A stretch of DNA of 34,205 nt from the NCBI GenBank assembly GCA_001725415.1, contig MEGH01000063.1, forward strand, positions 1 through 34,205. The letters run 5' to 3'. Every line of letters begins with the position of its first letter. Position 1 is the first letter of the stretch. The stretch is from Pseudonocardia sp. SCN 73-27 (GTDB lineage: Bacteria; Actinomycetota; Actinomycetes; Mycobacteriales; Pseudonocardiaceae). Shown piece by piece: positions 8,750-29,684 of the stretch. Under the pieces are notes generated by a model, which searched no databases, was not told the DNA's origin, and saw nothing but the letters and a program-made list of their open reading frames with translations. The translations under genes and the position numbers were made by a program.

Positions 8750-9858
8750 CAGCCGACGACCTTCGACTCGCGCAGGGCGGCGATCTCGGTGTCGTCGAGG
8801 CCGAGGCGGGTGCGCAGGACCTCGTCGGTGTGCTCACCGAGCGCGGGCAGCGCCGTGGGCTCCTGGCCGACCAGCGAGCTGGCGACCTTGATCGGGTTGC
8901 CGATCGTGCGGATGGTGCCGAGGTCGCGGTTGGTGGTGTCCTGGCGCATCTGGCGGGCGGTGATCTGCTCGTCGTCGAGCAGGTCCTCGGTGGTGTTGAC
9001 CGGCGCCGACGGCACACGCGCGGCCTGCAGCTCCGCGACGGCCTGGCCGCGGGTGCGCACGCCGGTCCACTCCTCGATCGCGGGCCGGACGATCGTCTCG
9101 TGCGCCTTGGAGCGCATGTGCCCGGTGGCGAGGTCGGGATGGTCGACGAGGTCGGGGCGGCCGATGCAGCCGCACAGCGCGGCCCATTCTCGCGGGTTGA
9201 GGACGGCGATGATCAGGTAGCCGTCGCTCGCCTCGAACGGCCCCCACGGCGACTGCAGAGCGTACTGGCCGCGGCCCATCGACTCGCCCAGGTGCTCCTG
9301 GTAGGCCATCGGCAGGTCGTTCATGAGCAGGCAGGCGTCGAACATCCCGATGTCGACGCGGGTGCCCTCGCCGGTGCGGTCGCGGTCGCGCAGCGCGACG
9401 AGCGTGCCCGCGAACGCGCAGGTGCCGGAGAAGATGTCCGACATCGCGAAGCCCATCCACGCCGGCGGGCGGTCCTTCTCGCCTGCGAGGTGGGTGAGCC
9501 CGGCCATGGCTTCGGCGATGATCGCGTAGGCGGGCTGGTCGCGGTGCGGGCTGGGGAGCACGTCGTCGTGGCCGAAGCCGCTGATCGAGGTGTAGACGAG
9601 CCGCGGGTTGAGCTCGTGCAGCCGCTCCCAGGAGAAGCCGAGGCGGGCCAGCACGCCGGGCCGGAAGTTCTCGACGAGCACGTCGGCCTGGGTGACCAGC
9701 TCGGCGAGGATCTCCTTGCCGCGCTCGGACTTCAGGTCCAGCTCGACGCTCTTCTTCCCGCGGGTGAAGCGCAGGATGTTGAGGTTCGTCGAGCCTCCCG
9801 GGCCGTGCAGCTCGTAGCCGGCCTTGCTGGAGCGCGGTCTGTTCGACAACCTCTTCAT
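8749..9858 (-). pseudogene. CaiB/BaiF-type CoA-transferase lacking its N-terminus
   Basis: Class III CoA-transferase, which moves CoA between carboxylic acids. Seen: RGKKSVELDLKSERGKE, ADVLVENFRPGVLARLG, the catalytic-Asp segment RVDIGMFDACLLMNDLP, and ENFRPG-type and C-terminal motifs through to the end. The usual first 50-60 residues (the LDLTRVLAGP-type segment and the glycine-rich DLGADVIKVE strand) are absent. The homology starts at about 9825. The frame continues to an ATG at 9858, but those extra residues are antisense to the neighbouring monooxygenase, so the start is not genuine. Likely inactive. It lies head-to-head with a monooxygenase that is truncated at the same point. Confidence 0.75.
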
Positions 9859-22915: not shown

Positions 22916-24442
22916 TCAGGCCGCAACCAGCTCGTCCAGGACCGTCACGATCGCCTCACCGATCCGGCGCAGGTCGGAAGCGGGCAGGGCGGCGAGGCAG
23001 ACACGGACGTCCCAGCTCGCGGCGTCGAAACCCGCGCCCGGGAGCACGACGACCCCGTGCGCGTCGGCCAGCCGCACCGCCAGCTCGGAGGGGTCGAGGG
23101 CGTGCAGCCGGTCGGCGCCGTCGGCACCGTGGCGGACCTGCGCGACCGACAGCAGGTCGACGAGGGCGTAGTACTGCGAGTCCTGCCCACCCGCCGGCGG
23201 GACGCCCAGGGGCGTGAGCAGCGCGGCGTGCCGACGCCCGAGCTCGGTACGCAGGGTCGCGGCGTGCGGGGCGCCGTCGGGCACGAGGTGGGCCAGGGCG
23301 AACAGGCCCATCTGGACCTGGTCGGGCGTCGCCAGGCCGGCGATGTTGTGCAGCGCCACCTCGCGGCTCTCGGCGACCATCCGCTCCAGGAACGGCAGCG
23401 ACCGCGGGTCGGCGGTGACGGAGGAGTAGCGGCGGGCGGCGGCGTCCCGCGCGGCGTCGCCGAGTCCGGACAGGATGGTGTCGAGCGCGGTGTCGGCGGC
23501 GACGGCGACGAACCCGAGCCGGTTGCCGGTCGCGCCGAAGTTCTTGGAGAAGGAGTGCAGGCAGATGACATTGCGCGGCACCTCGGCGAGCAGCCCGCGG
23601 AAGCCGTCGACGAACGTCGCGTAGACGGTGTCGGCGATCAGGATCAGATCGGGCCGGTGCTCGGCGACGATGTCGCGGATCTCGCGCAGCCGCTCGGGGC
23701 GCATCGCGCGGGTGTCGGGGTTGCCGGGGTTGATGACGACGAAAGCCTTGATCTTGGGGTCGCGCAGGACCTGGAGGACGCCCTCGTCGAACCGGTAGGG
23801 GGCGTTGTGCGCAGCCCTGACCTCGACGATCTCGACGCCGAAGTGTTCGAGGTCGGGGATCTTCAGGTACGGGGTGAAGACGGGTGAGGCGATCGCGATC
23901 TTGTCACCGGTACCGAGGATCCCGTTCTCGCGCAACGTCCTGAACGTGTACGCCATGGCGGCGGCGCCGCCCTCCGTGGCGAAGACGTGGAACCGCCCGG
24001 GTGGGCCGGTGTCGGCGCCGCAGACGGTCACGGCGTACCGCTCCATGACGAGCTCGAGGTGCTGCAGCATCCGCTGCGGCGTGGGGTAGCCGGCACCGAG
24101 GACGCCGCGGACCAGCTCGCCGACGAACGCGTCCGGGTCCACCCCGAACTCGGTGACCACCCAGTCGACGGCGGCCCGCAGGAAGGAGGGGTCATCGCCA
24201 AGGTCGGCGGCGAGGCGGTCGGCGATGCCGGCGTCGTCGGGGATGCCACCCCAGTAGCCGTCGCCGTCGACAGTGGCGCGTCCGGCGGACTCGGTGACCG
24301 CGAAGGCGCCGAGCCGGAAGAACGCGGCCCGCGGGACGGTGGCGATCCAGTCGGGCTGGCCGCGACCGGCGTCGAGCACCGGCAGCCCCGAGGCGCGGGC
24401 GGCCGCGGTCAGCTCGGGCTGGGTGGGCACACGTGGGGTCAC
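22916..24442 (-). CDS. PLP-dependent aspartate 4-decarboxylase (L-aspartate to L-alanine)
   Basis: Fold-type I PLP enzyme of 508 residues, the length and architecture of bifunctional aspartate aminotransferase/aspartate beta-decarboxylases. Seen (numbering from this start): DAGRGQPDWIATVPRAAFFR near residue 24, INPGNPDTRA with Asn238, LIADTVYATF with the Asp/Tyr pair near 271-274, and LHSFSKNFGATGNRLG with the PLP lysine at 300. The paired GRGxPxWI and SFSKNFGATG motifs separate it from ordinary aminotransferases. The start is GTG at 24442 with GGAGG nine bases upstream; an ATG at 24484 lies upstream of that ribosome site. Divergent from the AlaRS-like gene (142 bp between starts), so it may supply the alanine used there (inference). 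Confidence 0.85.
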   Translation of the reverse strand: MTPRVPTQPELTAAARASGLPVLDAGRGQPDWIATVPRAAFFRLGAFAVTESAGRATVDGDGYWGGIPDDAGIADRLAADLGDDPSFLRAAVDWVVTEFGVDPDAFVGELVRGVLGAGYPTPQRMLQHLELVMERYAVTVCGADTGPPGRFHVFATEGGAAAMAYTFRTLRENGILGTGDKIAIASPVFTPYLKIPDLEHFGVEIVEVRAAHNAPYRFDEGVLQVLRDPKIKAFVVINPGNPDTRAMRPERLREIRDIVAEHRPDLILIADTVYATFVDGFRGLLAEVPRNVICLHSFSKNFGATGNRLGFVAVAADTALDTILSGLGDAARDAAARRYSSVTADPRSLPFLERMVAESREVALHNIAGLATPDQVQMGLFALAHLVPDGAPHAATLRTELGRRHAALLTPLGVPPAGGQDSQYYALVDLLSVAQVRHGADGADRLHALDPSELAVRLADAHGVVVLPGAGFDAASWDVRVCLAALPASDLRRIGEAIVTVLDELVAA

Positions 24443-24584
24443 GACGGCGGGCCTCCTGCGGCAGTGCGGGATACGTCTCCGCATTCGGACTCGGGAAATG
24501 GGTCGGAAGGGTTACGACAGCGGCAGGAATCGGTGGTGACGAATCCTCTTCCGGTCGTCGCCGAGGCGTGGCAGTGTCGGTGAA

Positions 24585-25976
24585 ATGGACGCGCGCGCGA
24601 TTCGCCAGGCGTATCTCGATCTGCTGCGGGAACACGAGCACGTGGTGATCGAGCGCGCGCCGCTCGTCCTGCGTGACGACCCCACGACGCTGTTCACGGG
24701 TAGCGGGATGCAGCCGCTGCTGCCGTATCTGCTGGGTGCCGAACACCCCGACGGCGCGCGGCTGGCCGACGTCCAGCCGTGCCTACGGGCGCAGGACATG
24801 GACGAGGTCGGCGACAACCGGCACACCACGTTCTTCGAGATGCTCGGCAACTGGAGCCTGGGCGACTACTCGAAGGCCGAGCAGATCCCGATGGTGTGGC
24901 ACTTCCTCGTCGACATCGTGGGGCTCGACCCGGAACGCATCTACGTCACGGCGTTCATCGGCGACGAGGCCCACGGGATCCCGCGTGACGAGGAGAGCGC
25001 CGACATCTGGGAGCGGCTGTTCCGGGAGAAGGGAATCAGCTTCGACCGGATCGACCTCGACACCGAGGAGCACGGCAACGAGGTCGGCAACCAGGGCGCG
25101 CGGATCGCGTTCTACGGGCACAAGAACTGGTGGAGCCGGTTCGGCGGCCCGGACGACATGCCGGTCGGCGACCCGGGCGGCCCGGACTCGGAGATCTTCT
25201 ACTACTTCCCGCAGGTCGAGCACGACACCGCGTACGGGCGGTATCCGCACCAGAACTCCGACGGCGGGCAGTTCATGGAGATCGGCAACTCCGTCTTCAT
25301 GACGTACCGCCGCACCGAGACGGGTGTGGTCGACCTGCCCAGGCACAACGTCGACTTCGGCGGCGGTCTGGAGCGGATCGCGGCGGCGTCGATCGACAAC
25401 CCGGACGTCTACCACGTGAGCCTGCTGTGGCCGATGGTCGAGCAGCTGCAGAAGGTCACGGGCAAGAGCTACGAGGACGCGACGACGGCGATGCGCGTCG
25501 TCGTCGACCACCTGCGCGGCGCTGTGTTCCTGGCTGCCGACGGGGTGAAGCCCAGCAACTCCAAGCAGGGCTACGTGATGCGGCGGCTGCTGCGCCGGGC
25601 GATGCGGTTCGGGCTCGATCTCGAGCTGACGGCGGGTGTCGCGGCCGAGCTGGTGCCCGTCGTGGCCTCGGTGTACTCCGACGTCTACCCGGAGATCGCG
25701 GAGAAGGAGACCGAGATCGTCGCGGTGATCGCGAAGGAGGAGAAGCTCTTCGCGCGGACGCTGCGGAAGGGGTTGTCGATGGTGCGCCGGCTGGGTCGCA
25801 CCCAGGCGATCATCACCGGCGCCAACCTGTTCGAGCTGCACGACACGTTCGGCATGCCGATCGAGCTCTCGGTCGAGGAAGCACACCGTCAGGGCATCGC
25901 GCTGGAGGACACCTGGCAGGCCGACTTCGGCGCGCTGATGGACGAGCAGAAGGCACGCTCCCGCGCCGCGGGTTGA
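24585..25976 (+). CDS. Free-standing alanyl-tRNA synthetase core (aminoacylation domains only)
   Basis: 463 residues, about half of a normal AlaRS (about 880). Seen: class II motif 1/2 region with LFTGSGMQPLLPYL (36-49) and HTTFFEMLGNWSLGDYSKAE (80-99), motif 3 as GGGLERI (259-265), then the tRNA-recognition helices. KPSNSKQGYVMRRLLRRAMR puts Asn325, and NLFELHDTFGMP Asp420, where as I align them full-length AlaRS has the two residues that read the G3:U70 pair. The protein ends at LMDEQKARSRAAG, the natural boundary before the editing domain. The editing (AlaX-like) and C-Ala domains are absent, with no remnant downstream. Known: an E. coli AlaRS fragment of 461 residues still charges RNA minihelices. 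No frameshift or decay seen. Start ATG 24585, weak ribosome site. A normal alaS is presumably elsewhere. Confidence 0.88.
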   Translation: MDARAIRQAYLDLLREHEHVVIERAPLVLRDDPTTLFTGSGMQPLLPYLLGAEHPDGARLADVQPCLRAQDMDEVGDNRHTTFFEMLGNWSLGDYSKAEQIPMVWHFLVDIVGLDPERIYVTAFIGDEAHGIPRDEESADIWERLFREKGISFDRIDLDTEEHGNEVGNQGARIAFYGHKNWWSRFGGPDDMPVGDPGGPDSEIFYYFPQVEHDTAYGRYPHQNSDGGQFMEIGNSVFMTYRRTETGVVDLPRHNVDFGGGLERIAAASIDNPDVYHVSLLWPMVEQLQKVTGKSYEDATTAMRVVVDHLRGAVFLAADGVKPSNSKQGYVMRRLLRRAMRFGLDLELTAGVAAELVPVVASVYSDVYPEIAEKETEIVAVIAKEEKLFARTLRKGLSMVRRLGRTQAIITGANLFELHDTFGMPIELSVEEAHRQGIALEDTWQADFGALMDEQKARSRAAG

Positions 25977-26003
25977 GCCCTCCGGGGTGCCGGCCATCCT
26001 CGG

Positions 26004-26066
26004 CGCCGAGTTCGACACCAGGCTGCTCGCGACCATGATCGACGCAGTCTGTCGTCGAACTCGGCG
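26004..26066. repeat. Inverted repeat with 13-bp arms in the convergent intergenic region
   Basis: Arms 26004-26016 and 26054-26066 are perfect reverse complements (CGCCGAGTTCGAC and its complement) with a 37-base spacer. It starts 28 bp after the stop of the AlaRS-like gene and ends 13 bp before the terminator-like hairpin. It could be part of a termination region or a remnant of a mobile repeat; no T-tract follows. Confidence 0.6.
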
Positions 26067-26079
26067 TAGGTCCGGGAAT

Positions 26080-26120
26080 GAAGAAATGGGCCATCCGGAT
26101 TCCGGATGGCCCATTTCTTC
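26080..26120. terminator. Strong bidirectional terminator-like hairpin
   Basis: Positions 26080-26098 and 26102-26120 are perfectly complementary (19 bp, 3-base loop). The stem base is AT-rich (GAAGAAAT paired with ATTTCTTC) and its top is GC-rich, so each strand carries a U-rich end. It lies 103 bp after the stop of the AlaRS-like gene and 6 bases past the CCA end of the mini-tRNA on the other strand, so it suits both converging transcripts. On the minus strand it would leave a short 3' trailer to be trimmed to CCA. Confidence 0.75.
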
Positions 26121-26126
26121 GACGTT

Positions 26127-26180
26127 TGGTGGAGGACTCAGGAATTGAACCTGACAAGGCGTCCCAAGTACGCATCCCCC
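26127..26180 (-). ncRNA. 54-nt miniature tRNA(Ala)-like RNA with G3:U70, T arm and encoded CCA
   Basis: Read on the minus strand. 5' acceptor strand GGGGGAT (26180-26174) pairs with 3' strand GTCCTCC (26137-26131): seven pairs with a G:U at position 3:70 and a wobble at 7:66. Next come a hairpin GCGT/ACGC with a 7-base loop (26173-26159), linker CTTG, and a T arm TCAGG/CCTGA with loop TTCAATT (26154-26138), which has the invariant tRNA T-loop bases. Then A73 (26130) and CCA (26129-26127). The D arm and anticodon arm are not both present: only one 4-bp hairpin stands in their place, so it cannot be an ordinary 73-93-nt tRNA. G3:U70 and A73 are the known identity elements for AlaRS. It lies 49 nt after the MprF-like stop, on the same strand. 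An alternative is a decayed tRNA or an integration-site remnant. Confidence 0.8.
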
Positions 26181-26191
26181 TTGCAGGGCAA

Positions 26192-26220
26192 AACTTACCG
26201 CGATGATCGTCGACAGGCAA
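26192..26220 (-). promoter_or_regulatory. Candidate promoter for the mini-tRNA
   Basis: On the minus strand, TTGCCT (26220-26215), a 17-base spacer, then TAAGTT (26197-26192): a vegetative-type promoter with ideal spacing. Transcription would be expected to start about 7 bases on, four or five bases before the first acceptor-stem base at 26180. It sits wholly between the MprF-like stop and the RNA, so the RNA could be made alone as well as by read-through. Confidence 0.45.
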
Positions 26221-26229
26221 CCCCGGATT

Positions 26230-28380
26230 TCAGTGCTGTTCGTGTCCCCCTGATCGGGTCGCCGCGATCAACTGCCATGCCGTGGCGTCGGGCAGATAGG
26301 CGCGGGTGAGGGCGACGCCGATCCGGGGCAGGTCGGCCTCGTCGCGGAACGCCAGATGCACCGGCTCGTAGCGGGGCTGGAACTTGGCCTTGAAAGCGTG
26401 CAGCGACCGGAACCCGTAGAACGGTTCGAGGGCGCCGCCGAGCCGGTCGAGCAGCCGGTCGGTGCGGTCGAGCTCGGCCGGCGAGACCTCGCCGCGCGCG
26501 AGCGGCGCCCCCGACAGCGACACGAACGCCGCACCCTGCTCCCGGAACTGCAGGCACGCCGACGCGATCATGAACTCCATGACCGACCGGAAGCCGTCGG
26601 TGCGGCGGCGCATGACGTCGAGGGTCCAGCCACGGACCTCGCCGCCCTCCGCGTAGACCGGCAGCCACGACGTGACGCCGTGCAGCGAGCCGGTCGCGTC
26701 GATGGCGATACCGACGCGCACCTTCGGGTCCAGCGCCTCGTCGACCCCGCCGAGGGTGAAGCCCATCTCGGGCAGCTCCTTGTCGCCGACCCACTCCTGG
26801 GAGATGGCACGGACCTGGGCGAGGATCGCGAACGGCTCCTCGGCGAGTGTCACGATCCGGAACTCGATCGACTCCTTGCGCGCCTTGTTCAGCGCCGACC
26901 GGACGTCCTGCCAGGCCTTGCCCTTGAACTCGAGACCCGGCAGGTCGATGAGGGTGTCCTCGGCGATCTGGACGGTGCGCCACCCGGCGGCGCGGGCGGC
27001 GTCGGCGGCGGCGTCGGTGACGGAGAACAGGGCCGGGATGAGGCCGCCGCGCTCGGCCATCGTCGCGAACTCGGTGACGGCGGCGGCGATGGTCGGGTGC
27101 GGGACGACGGGGTCGGCGAGGGCGAGCGCGACGCCGGCGTGGCGTTCGTAGCCGATGTAGCCGCGGCCGTCGGCGGTGAAGAGGTAGCGCATGGCGGGCC
27201 ACGTCGTCATCCACGACATCGTCGAGCCGCCGACGGACTCGAGCATCGCCTTGGCCCGGGCCATGCCCTCGCCGCCGGCGTCGAGCGCGCCGACGCCGCC
27301 GGGCACACGGCGCTTGAACTTCCCGCGGAACGCATGCCGGTTCACGACGAGCAGAGCCAGCTCGCCGAGCCACAGCAGCCCGCCCGCCAGCGAGATGGGC
27401 GCGCCCAGGGGAAGCAGCCCGGAGAAGATCAGGACCAGCGCCACGATCGCGAGGGCGATGTTGAGCAATCCGAGCACGAGCGCAGCCCACCAGGCCCAGC
27501 GCTTGCCGTTGCGCAGCGCGTTGGCCACCAACGCGATCAGGGCCAGCTCGATGAGGACGTCGGCGATGCCGGCCGCCTGGCCCGAGGTCGCGCCGAAGGG
27601 CCCGCGGCCGGGGAAGAGCAGGACGATGAGCTGGGTGAGGCCGATGAGGATCAGCCCGCCGAACGCCGTCATCCGGGTCTCGCGCGGGGTGCGGGGCCCG
27701 AAGCCCGGTTCGACGCCGTAGCGCCACTGCCCGACCAGGAACCCGACGCCGACGGCGACGGCGTGGGAGACGTCGGACAGCGTGCCCTCGAACAGGAACG
27801 CCGCTGTCACGTAGAACGACAGCAGGGCCCGCACCCGCAGCCGCCACGGGGAACGCAGGGTCGCCGAGGTGACGGCGACGACCGTCAGCATCCCGGTGGT
27901 GAAGCCGACGTCGCGGGCGCCGGCGAGGTCGCGGGCCCACACCCACGTCGTCGTCGAGAGTGCCCAGACGAGCAGCGACGCGACGAGGATGCCGCCGACC
28001 TGGCCGGCGATCGCGGTGACCACCGTGCGACGGGTGCCCAGCCGCAGCTCGCACGCCCCGACGAGGACGGCGAACATGATCATGCCGGAGAAGTACTGCG
28101 CCGGGCTGATCGCGAAGAGCCAGCCGGTGAGCAGCGTCCAGACCTTCGCCTCCTGCAGGGCGGGGACGCCGTAGGCGACCTGCGGGAACCAGTCCGCCTG
28201 CCAGATCGGCTCCCAGATCGTCCGCGCGGCCACGCCGACGACGAGCGTCAGACCCACGACGGTCAGCGTGAAGGGGATGCGCCGCAACGCGTGCGGCGTC
28301 GCAGCGGCCACCCGGCTGGCCCAGGCCTCGAACCCGCCGGCCTGCCCCGGCGTGGCGGGCGGAACGGCGGTGGCGGTCAT
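26230..28380 (-). CDS. MprF-like aminoacyl-phospholipid synthase (DUF2156/GNAT-type)
   Basis: A 716-residue membrane protein. Known family role: transfer of an amino acid (Lys, Ala or other) from aminoacyl-tRNA to phosphatidylglycerol or another lipid. Seen: roughly ten hydrophobic segments between residues 35 and 347, the first part rhomboid-like in layout, then a cytosolic C-terminal domain of about 360 residues with FTADGRGYIGYERHAGVALA, GKAWQDVRSALNKARKE (487-503), GWTLDVMRRRTDGFRSVMEF, and GALEPFYGFRSLHAFKAKFQ. The start is ATG at 28380, overlapping the esterase stop (ATGA). The very long frame upstream of this start is antisense and ignored. It is convergent with the AlaRS-like gene and followed on its own strand by the mini-tRNA. 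Alanine as the transferred group is inference from these neighbours. Confidence 0.88.
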   Translation of the reverse strand: MTATAVPPATPGQAGGFEAWASRVAAATPHALRRIPFTLTVVGLTLVVGVAARTIWEPIWQADWFPQVAYGVPALQEAKVWTLLTGWLFAISPAQYFSGMIMFAVLVGACELRLGTRRTVVTAIAGQVGGILVASLLVWALSTTTWVWARDLAGARDVGFTTGMLTVVAVTSATLRSPWRLRVRALLSFYVTAAFLFEGTLSDVSHAVAVGVGFLVGQWRYGVEPGFGPRTPRETRMTAFGGLILIGLTQLIVLLFPGRGPFGATSGQAAGIADVLIELALIALVANALRNGKRWAWWAALVLGLLNIALAIVALVLIFSGLLPLGAPISLAGGLLWLGELALLVVNRHAFRGKFKRRVPGGVGALDAGGEGMARAKAMLESVGGSTMSWMTTWPAMRYLFTADGRGYIGYERHAGVALALADPVVPHPTIAAAVTEFATMAERGGLIPALFSVTDAAADAARAAGWRTVQIAEDTLIDLPGLEFKGKAWQDVRSALNKARKESIEFRIVTLAEEPFAILAQVRAISQEWVGDKELPEMGFTLGGVDEALDPKVRVGIAIDATGSLHGVTSWLPVYAEGGEVRGWTLDVMRRRTDGFRSVMEFMIASACLQFREQGAAFVSLSGAPLARGEVSPAELDRTDRLLDRLGGALEPFYGFRSLHAFKAKFQPRYEPVHLAFRDEADLPRIGVALTRAYLPDATAWQLIAATRSGGHEQH

Positions 28381-29684
28381 GTCGTGAATCCCATCCGTGG
28401 CGAGAGGAAGTCGAGGGCGGGCACGAGTGTGGCCGTAGGGACGCCCCACGAGTGCCCCTGACCAGGGACGATCTGCGTCGTGACGGTCATGCCGGCGTTC
28501 TTGGCCGCCGTCGACACCTCGGTCATCCACTGCTGCGTCGTCGGCTCGTCGCCGCCGGCGGCGAAGAAGCCCCACGAGTCGGGGTAGGTCTTCTGCGACA
28601 ACAGGGTCAGCGGGGTCAGCGCGTCGAACGCCGCGGTGTCGCCGTGGAACGCCTGCTGGATCGTCTGGGTGCGGTCGGCGCTGATGGCGGGCTCGCGCTC
28701 GCCGGCCAGGTCGATGAACGACGGGAACAGGTCGGGGTGGCGCGTCGCCATCTGGATGGAGCACGTGCCGCCGAAGGACCAGCCGCCGAACGTCCAGTGC
28801 GCGTGGTTGGTGTCGACGCCGACGTTGGCCGTGATCCACTTGACGACGTCGACCGTCAGGTAGGTGTCGGCCTTCGCGATGTCGGAGTCCATGCACATCG
28901 TGTTGCCGTCCTCGGCGCCGTTGGGGTCGACGACGACGGTGACGGGGGCGAGCCCGTTGTGGGTGGCGGCGAACCCGTCGAGCAGCTGCTGCAGCCGGCC
29001 GGAGACGATCCAGTCCTGCGGGCTGCCGGGCTGGCCCGACACGAGGACCAGCACGGGCAGCAGCGGCGGCTTCGGGCTGGTGTAGGCGGGCGGCAGGTAG
29101 ATCCACGCGGGGCGGGCGTTGAAGCCGGACACCGTGCCCGGGATCGGCGCCGACTCGACGCGGCTGCGGCCCGGGTTGCCCGTCCACCGGGTCACGACGG
29201 GCGTGGCCTCCGACGCGGACCTGACGCCGGATGCCGCGGCGAACGCGGACACGTCGTTCTCGTCGCTGGACACCAGGGTGCCGACGGTCGGGTACTCCTC
29301 GAAGTACACGTTGATCTGCGACGCGGCGGTGGCGAGCGCGACGACGGTGCACACGATCGCGGTGACCTTGCGGCCCACCGAGGACGCGATCATGCTGCCG
29401 ACCCCGAGCACGAACACACCCACGCCGACGGCGATCCACAACCGGACGGTGCCCGGCAGCGGCTCGGGCAGCAGGTCGAGCACGGTGAGGACGAGCCAGT
29501 TCAGCAGGAAGTACGTGAGCAGCGCGAGGACCGCCGCGACGACGATCGTGATCACCGAGGCGCGGCCGCCACGGGCGAACAGCACGAAGAGCGCGATACC
29601 GCCGAGCACCAGCAGGACTACCGGGAGCCATCCGTTGATCAGCGAGAGATCAGACACGGGGCCGCGCCGTGGATCCGTTGTCAC
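28377..29684 (-). CDS. Membrane-anchored alpha/beta-hydrolase esterase (antigen 85/FrmB-like)
   Basis: A 435-residue protein. Four hydrophobic segments at the N-terminus (for example WLPVVLLVLGGIALFVLFA) are followed by an exported esterase domain from about residue 165. Seen: ARPAWIYLPPAYTS, VLVLVSGQPGSPQDWI, the nucleophile elbow GGWSFGGTCS, GFFAAGGDEP for the acid region and PGQGHSWGV for the His. The fold is the esterase D/antigen 85 type. The stop overlaps the MprF-like start by ATGA, so the two are translationally coupled. Esterases beside aminoacyl-lipid synthases are known in actinobacteria and are thought to hydrolyse aminoacylated lipid, which is a reasonable guess here. The start is GTG at 29684 or the in-frame GTG at 29657; neither has a strong ribosome site. 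Confidence 0.85.
   Translation of the reverse strand: MTTDPRRGPVSDLSLINGWLPVVLLVLGGIALFVLFARGGRASVITIVVAAVLALLTYFLLNWLVLTVLDLLPEPLPGTVRLWIAVGVGVFVLGVGSMIASSVGRKVTAIVCTVVALATAASQINVYFEEYPTVGTLVSSDENDVSAFAAASGVRSASEATPVVTRWTGNPGRSRVESAPIPGTVSGFNARPAWIYLPPAYTSPKPPLLPVLVLVSGQPGSPQDWIVSGRLQQLLDGFAATHNGLAPVTVVVDPNGAEDGNTMCMDSDIAKADTYLTVDVVKWITANVGVDTNHAHWTFGGWSFGGTCSIQMATRHPDLFPSFIDLAGEREPAISADRTQTIQQAFHGDTAAFDALTPLTLLSQKTYPDSWGFFAAGGDEPTTQQWMTEVSTAAKNAGMTVTTQIVPGQGHSWGVPTATLVPALDFLSPRMGFTT

Follow-up and report, generated by a model that had tools for sequence, protein, structure and literature searches.

The locus at positions 22916-29684 of contig MEGH01000063.1 of Pseudonocardia sp. SCN 73-27 raises the question of why a truncated alanyl-tRNA synthetase (the AlaRS core) should stand beside a 54-nt tRNA-like RNA that has no anticodon arm (the mini-tRNA) and a putative MprF-like lipid aminoacyltransferase. 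Our comparison of this window (the whole stretch analysed, positions 1-34,205 of the contig) with related genomes leads us to favour, with somewhat better than even confidence, the following answer: the private AlaRS would charge the anticodon-less carrier, and the carrier would feed the lipid alanyl-transferase, which together would form a private alanine channel serving the lipids of the membrane. What we observe is the fold and conservation of the RNA, the domain content of the proteins, and the linkage and co-occurrence of the parts. An earlier note on this DNA had joined five elements into one coherent alanine-to-lipid route; all five are present in the window, and its interpretation as a whole is partly supported. 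The elements and their immediate surroundings are as follows:

22916-24484, minus strand: aspartate 4-decarboxylase (AspDC; NCBIfam equivalog), which makes L-alanine; an optional neighbour
24585-25976, plus strand: AlaRS core of 463 amino acids, comprising the catalytic and tRNA-recognition region (PF01411)
26001-26069: long inverted repeat just 3′ of the AlaRS core, possibly the terminator of the core
26080-26120, minus strand: long hairpin directly 3′ of the mini-tRNA (20-nt arms, 1-nt centre), likely a transcription terminator, on which a simple terminator scan made no call
26127-26180, minus strand: 54-nt mini-tRNA without anticodon arm (direct reading, minimum-free-energy (MFE) fold, covariance-model homologues and pair counts)
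26230-28380, minus strand: putative MprF-like tRNA-dependent lipid aminoacyltransferase (PF09924)
28377-29684, minus strand: putative esterase, an alpha/beta hydrolase (PF00756)

The mini-tRNA starts 49 nt past the stop codon of the MprF-like gene on the same strand, and the esterase and MprF frames overlap by 4 bases at the MprF start.

The mini-tRNA is a real conserved RNA family and not a product of chance. The window RNA has a 7-bp acceptor (GGGGGAU/GUCCUCC) with G3:U70 and A73; a 4-bp D-arm-like hairpin (loop ACUUGGG) followed by a 4-nt linker; a 5-bp T arm (loop UUCAAUU); and a 3′ end ACCA, with CCA encoded. Its MFE structure is exactly this three-helix fold, as is that of six of the eight homologues folded singly (in one of them the T arm has 4 bp), the other two, L006 and L128, folding otherwise. 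The homologues are 54-56 nt long and lack the anticodon arm; a linker of about 4-5 nt joins their D-like and T arms, and the hairpin loop, mostly GGG and perhaps D-loop-like, faces a UUCRA T loop. Three sequences, all of family f39 (L125, L126 and L128), have UGCGA T loops together with a GAG or AAG hairpin loop, a change that may have been one event.

Standard pairs fill 98.4% of pair cells in a first alignment of 12 homologues; in a later alignment of 39 (27 distinct), which consists of RNAs whose loci were retrieved and entered and which is biased towards structure through its fitting to the covariance model, the figure is 99.3%, vs. 89.7% after shuffling and 38-71% when the controls are slid. 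Both sides have changed in a compensatory manner in 6 of 16 pairs among the 27 distinct homologues. Because the helices are conserved with compensatory changes, and the covariation score is reached by none of 500 shuffles, the RNA stands above chance. The pairs G1:C72, G2:C71, G3:U70, G4:C69, G5:C68 and A6:U67, as well as A73, are invariant in all 27; the alanine identity set (G3:U70 and A73) and the missing anticodon arm thus bear out the earlier note, which had read the RNA as a mini-tRNA(Ala). CCA is encoded in 20 of the 27, and the remaining seven end in CTC, CCC, CCG, CAC or CTT; as the acceptor is kept in these seven, CCA addition is expected. The folding energy of the window RNA is no better than that of shuffles (z −0.83), ARAGORN makes no call on the RNA, and Rfam 15 gives no match to it at gathering score, as would befit a chance sequence or a decayed tRNA gene. 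Such an origin is contradicted by the pair counts, by the covariation score and by homologues down to E ~1e-13 outside the genus in several families, and we regard its probability as practically negligible; folding energy is uninformative as evidence for this RNA.

A hand scan found the RNA in P. sulfidoxydans (identical; the environmental strain NBRC 16205 has it), in a further genome of the same genus (G004) and in Williamsia soli. The class sample (394 genomes, including that of the window) was searched with the stricter filters of the tool and counted at E ≤ 1e-6; a covariance model from three sequences placed the RNA in 8 of the 394 genomes at this threshold and in 17 at E ≤ 0.01, and also detected it in Subtercola and as a second copy in Williamsia. 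A later model from 12 sequences found it in 10 of 60 genomes of the genus and in 38 of 120 genomes of family f6, spread over 11 of its 32 genera. Nine class genomes with weak matches (E 7e-4 to 0.008) were dropped before counting: ARAGORN identifies L116 and L117 as tRNA-Val and L121 as tRNA-Cys; L133, L135 and L136 resemble by eye the 3′ part of tRNA-Ser; the T arm of L134 is also that of a neighbouring tRNA-Val; G282 has an odd sequence; and G334 was also among those dropped. The L134 match (9628-9678, plus strand), 51 nt long and close to a tRNA-Val gene, resembles tRNA-Val but has no normal anticodon arm and is probably a remnant. As to a phage-borne origin of the RNA, viral contigs gave no match to one exact pattern that fits only part of the family.

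The AlaRS core of the window has a class II catalytic domain whose active-site residues align, and it matches positions 2-431 of the 552 in PF01411 (341 bits), with no other Pfam family at E ≤ 0.001, and the Pfam scan found neither the editing domain (tRNA_SAD) nor C-Ala (DHHA1). A full AlaRS with editing and DHHA1 domains is present elsewhere in the genome as a 900-aa open frame on another contig. The 23 core proteins compared have 458-470 residues counted from the match start, vs. 625-659 residues for ten AlaRS relatives of the Saccharibacteria clade; the two relatives scanned (L010 and L013) contain the editing domain and no DHHA1 match. In E. coli AlaRS, N303 and D400 read G3:U70 (PMC10036535; published work is cited here from excerpts of the articles). 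Asn325 and Asp420 of the window core align with these residues, and Asn and Asp are kept at the aligned positions in 22 of the 23 cores; all 23 have the EIGN/ELGN Asn and the NVD Asp. A quick tree of 69 rows nests the cores within Saccharibacteria-type AlaRS at two places: L010 and L011 are the neighbours of those from Subtercola, Brachybacterium and Brevibacterium, and the remaining 20 group with L009. Given the two nesting places and the rejection of a constrained single group (p-AU 0.001), the core gene was probably captured at least twice from Saccharibacteria-type AlaRS, and both putative captures lack everything after the same point, including the editing domain. Some Saccharibacteria live on actinobacteria. 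L017, L018 and L020, set beside L010 and L011, look like a second, separate actinobacterial capture that is cut at the same place. In two Rhodococcus loci (L007 and L008), the core lies within a cobalamin biosynthesis neighbourhood with no mini-tRNA nearby. In a look for other partners of the core, the neighbours scanned in Rhodococcus (cobalamin genes) and in Brachybacterium and Brevibacterium (ribonucleotide reductase) included no transferase that was noticed.

The MprF-like protein matches PF09924 (LPG_synthase_C) with 237 bits, vs. a cut-off of 27.5. Its N-terminus is a rhomboid-like membrane part with a weak Rhomboid_2 match below the Pfam cut-off; the canonical flippase N-terminus was not recovered, the score against the NCBIfam equivalog NF033480 is 145 bits vs. 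a cut-off of 600, and the Pfam scan gave no synthetase domain match, so the protein is not a LysX-type fusion with a lysyl-tRNA synthetase (LysRS). The esterase matches PF00756 with 47 bits and often travels with MprF among the loci compared. AspDC passes the NCBIfam equivalog cut-offs (TIGR03801, 477 bits vs. 435; PRK09275, 507 vs. 321). At another locus (L255:9112-9897, plus strand), just the rhomboid-like membrane half of MprF stands beside the core and the RNA, and the adjoining 599-aa frame has no Pfam match.

The core, the 54-nt RNA and the full-length MprF type occur together much more often than chance would allow, and in several genera they are also physically linked. Within the genus of the window, the core is present in 10 of 10 RNA-positive and in 0 of 32 RNA-negative genomes; among 18 further RNA-negative genomes, G104 alone was checked for the core and gave no match. 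In the class sample, eight genomes carry the RNA, eight the core and six both (Fisher 1.6e-10), and the full-length MprF type is found in 20 of 394 genomes including all eight with the core (Fisher 9e-12), although these and the other co-occurrence counts and Fisher values ignore kinship between genomes. The RNA is present in 6 of the 8 class genomes that have both MprF and the core, vs. 0 of the 12 that have MprF without it; across all 16 core-positive genomes searched for MprF, the full-length type occurs in 10 of 10 with the RNA vs. 2 of 6 lacking it.

RNA and core lie at most 4 kb apart in 15 of 17 genomes that have both (the gap between matches being 92-135 bp in G378, G443, G476, G543 and G360), and on separate short contigs in G573. 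The order of the genes varies: the RNA follows MprF in 8 of 9 loci of the genus, precedes the esterase in Williamsia and G378, and is divergent from the core in G443, G476, G543 and G360. At most 8 kb separate MprF from the core in 8 of 9 genus loci, Williamsia, G378, G476 and G466, and the two are adjacent, in different gene orders, in the genus, Williamsia, G378 and G466; in the ninth genus locus (G596) the membrane half of MprF alone is near the core, and in G443, G543, G360, G273 and Subtercola MprF is elsewhere in the genome. These data bear on a different explanation, namely that the core supplies ordinary Ala-tRNA(Ala) to MprF, as AcmD does for AcmF, and that the RNA is something apart: a regulator, a decoy or a tRNA-derived relic. 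The precedent of AcmD in the ascamycin cluster (PMC12945691) and two genomes (G273 and G466) with the core and full-length MprF in which the RNA is undetected agree with this explanation; the strict match of RNA and core in the genus, the compensatory pairing, the invariant acceptor and discriminator, and the acceptor kept where CCA is unencoded do not, and the varying position of the RNA relative to its neighbours is unsuited to a cis element. We consider it improbable.

The private alanine channel would work as follows. The 54-nt RNA would be a dedicated alanine carrier, i.e. a tRNA reduced to its acceptor, D-like and T arms, which could not decode. The truncated AlaRS, which keeps the counterparts of the G3:U70-reading residues and has neither an editing nor a C-Ala domain, would charge it with alanine; the MprF-like enzyme would move the alanine to a membrane lipid, giving alanyl-diacylglycerol (Ala-DAG) or alanyl-phosphatidylglycerol (Ala-PG); and the coupled esterase could remove it again. 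That the RNA is charged, that its alanine is transferred, which lipid receives it and that the RNA escapes elongation factor Tu (EF-Tu) are all predictions. Because the carrier has no anticodon, its alanine would stay outside translation and an editing-less synthetase would be harmless here; a product that is never delivered to the ribosome is in keeping with the loss of editing. A natural mini-AlaRS is reported to charge an acceptor-stem RNA with G3:U70 at a level close to that of tRNA-Ala, in a G3:U70-dependent manner (PMC10036535), and MprF1 is reported to recognise minihelix-Ala (PMC4052509).

Besides the kinship between genomes, several observations weigh against this proposal. In some lineages the RNA occurs without the core or without MprF: in family f6, none of the 38 RNA-positive genomes has the core and eight of them (one 82% complete) have no PF09924 protein. 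Conversely, the RNA was not detected in six core-positive genomes (G152, G153, G155, G156, G273 and G466), whose loci, searched again with filters off, gave nothing below E 1; four of the six are without the full-length MprF type, and two (G155 and G156) lack any PF09924 protein. In Subtercola the RNA, MprF and the core are on different contigs. The core of G378 lacks both Asn and Asp, though its RNA keeps G3:U70. The N461 fragment of E. coli AlaRS binds tRNA-Ala and microhelix poorly (PMC10036535), so that the core would need its own mode of RNA binding. The T-stem pair 51-63 is A-U in 27 of 27 mini-tRNAs and may weaken EF-Tu binding, just as the weak EF-Tu binding of the S. aureus non-proteinogenic tRNA-Gly is attributed to A51-U63 (PMC4052509); the same pair occurs in 6 of 41 ordinary tRNAs (tRNA-Val, -Ile and -Gln; 0 of 3 tRNA-Ala) from loci mostly retrieved by similarity, and since translating tRNA-Val and others share it, it is a hint only and not a strong EF-Tu signature. 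Finally, only 4 of 9 loci of the genus, and none of the 13 core loci outside it, have AspDC close to the core, which rules AspDC out as a fixed part of the system.

The single route of the earlier note is upheld for the linkage and co-occurrence of core, RNA and MprF, and AspDC is indeed an aspartate 4-decarboxylase, but it is no constant partner and the set is not closed, as shown by the f6 genomes and by the six core-positive genomes in which the RNA was not detected. A gene-neighbourhood survey, which that note had proposed, finds core, RNA and MprF together in the genus and the class, and the RNA without the core in family f6.

The f6 genomes point to an alternative in which the RNA is an alanine carrier of general use, incompetent in translation, that accepts alanine from any AlaRS the cell has, with MprF as one of several consumers; in f6, the housekeeping AlaRS would then charge it for another acceptor, e.g. 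one that belongs to the cell wall or to a secondary pathway. The RNA of the 38 coreless f6 genomes, the eight of them without a PF09924 protein and the second RNA copy of Williamsia, distant from core and MprF, speak for this alternative. That copy (L132:9471-9526, in Williamsia soli) lies between sigma-factor-like and epimerase-like genes. On the other side, core, RNA and MprF go together outside f6, and even within f6 the RNA is associated with MprF-type matches (28 of 38 RNA-positive vs. 20 of 82 RNA-negative genomes, Fisher 4e-7; 9 of 11 vs. 5 of 21 genera), a contrast that is somewhat smaller than it appears because a PF09924 protein is nonetheless present in 4 of 18 RNA-negative genomes that gave no match to the window MprF. 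On balance we hold the general carrier to be possible and rather unlikely. The f6 RNA occupies a fixed chromosomal place: 18 of 19 loci match a GNAT gene (an acetyltransferase by Pfam), which we take to be mshD-like, and 15 of 19 match a glnR-like gene (L211 matched none of the neighbour genes). In f6 loci L127, L129 and L193-L210, the mini-tRNA stands beside mshD-like, glnR-like and ppk genes, without an AlaRS core. A broader form of the private alanine channel, to which we give about even chances, would be a translation-orthogonal channel built from an anticodon-less tRNA, a lipid transferase and a Saccharibacteria-type core taken at least twice without its editing domain, the carrier family being wider and serving other acceptors where core or MprF is absent.

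Several known systems share features with this locus. Lipid alanylation by the MprF homologue AlaDAGS, with the products Ala-DAG and Ala-PG, is known in Corynebacterium, and a strain with pesT deleted together with alaDAGS is described (PMC10580965); the MprF-type transferase and the actinobacterial host are common to both systems, and the private AlaRS and mini-tRNA appear, as far as the excerpted article goes, only in that of the window. C. glutamicum PesT may be a parallel of the window esterase. LysX of mycobacteria, in which LysRS is fused to MprF, likewise has a synthetase dedicated to an MprF-type transferase; it differs in using lysine and in being a fused protein, and the excerpts of PMC10580965 and PMC9437257 mention no dedicated RNA. 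LysX and the corynebacterial lipids, which the earlier note had named as parallels, are apt ones (PMC10580965). Extra AlaRS, a truncated AlaRS-like protein and an alpha/beta hydrolase are also grouped around alanylation in the ascamycin cluster (AcmD, AcmE and AcmF), but AcmF, which lacks most activation residues, is a transferase to a nucleoside and ordinary tRNA-Ala is used (PMC12945691). The Tupanvirus mini-AlaRS also consists of the aminoacylation domain only and charges G3:U70 acceptor-stem RNA; it is viral, related to the AlaRS of the amoeba host, supports translation in yeast and has no Asn/Asp pair (PMC10036535), whereas the cores described here are bacterial, of the Saccharibacteria type, and keep Asn and Asp in 22 of 23. 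The non-proteinogenic tRNA-Gly of S. aureus are special tRNAs diverted to the envelope and share A51-U63 (PMC4052509). They are tRNA-Gly isoacceptors for peptidoglycan, whereas the window RNA belongs to an anticodon-less 54-56-nt family with alanine identity and its own synthetase. The tRNA-like domain of tmRNA also accepts alanine and has no anticodon; ARAGORN finds no tmRNA in the window.

Among the matches listed, we found no description in the open-licence PMC literature of a dedicated tRNA that has no anticodon and is served by a synthetase of its own; on this basis we regard the carrier RNA and its proposed pairing with a synthetase as new, and the transferase as one of a familiar type. 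By what means aminoacyl-tRNA is diverted by MprF-type enzymes from EF-Tu and the ribosome to lipids is a stated open question (PMC9976931, PMC4052509). If our proposal is true, a non-decoding dedicated carrier with its own synthetase would answer it directly. The RNA family, which lies outside the calls of Rfam 15, and its synthetase might also be usable as an orthogonal pair, and would be nature's equivalent of the laboratory system that pairs a minihelix with an AlaRS fragment; and some soil actinobacteria could decorate their membranes without drawing on protein synthesis.

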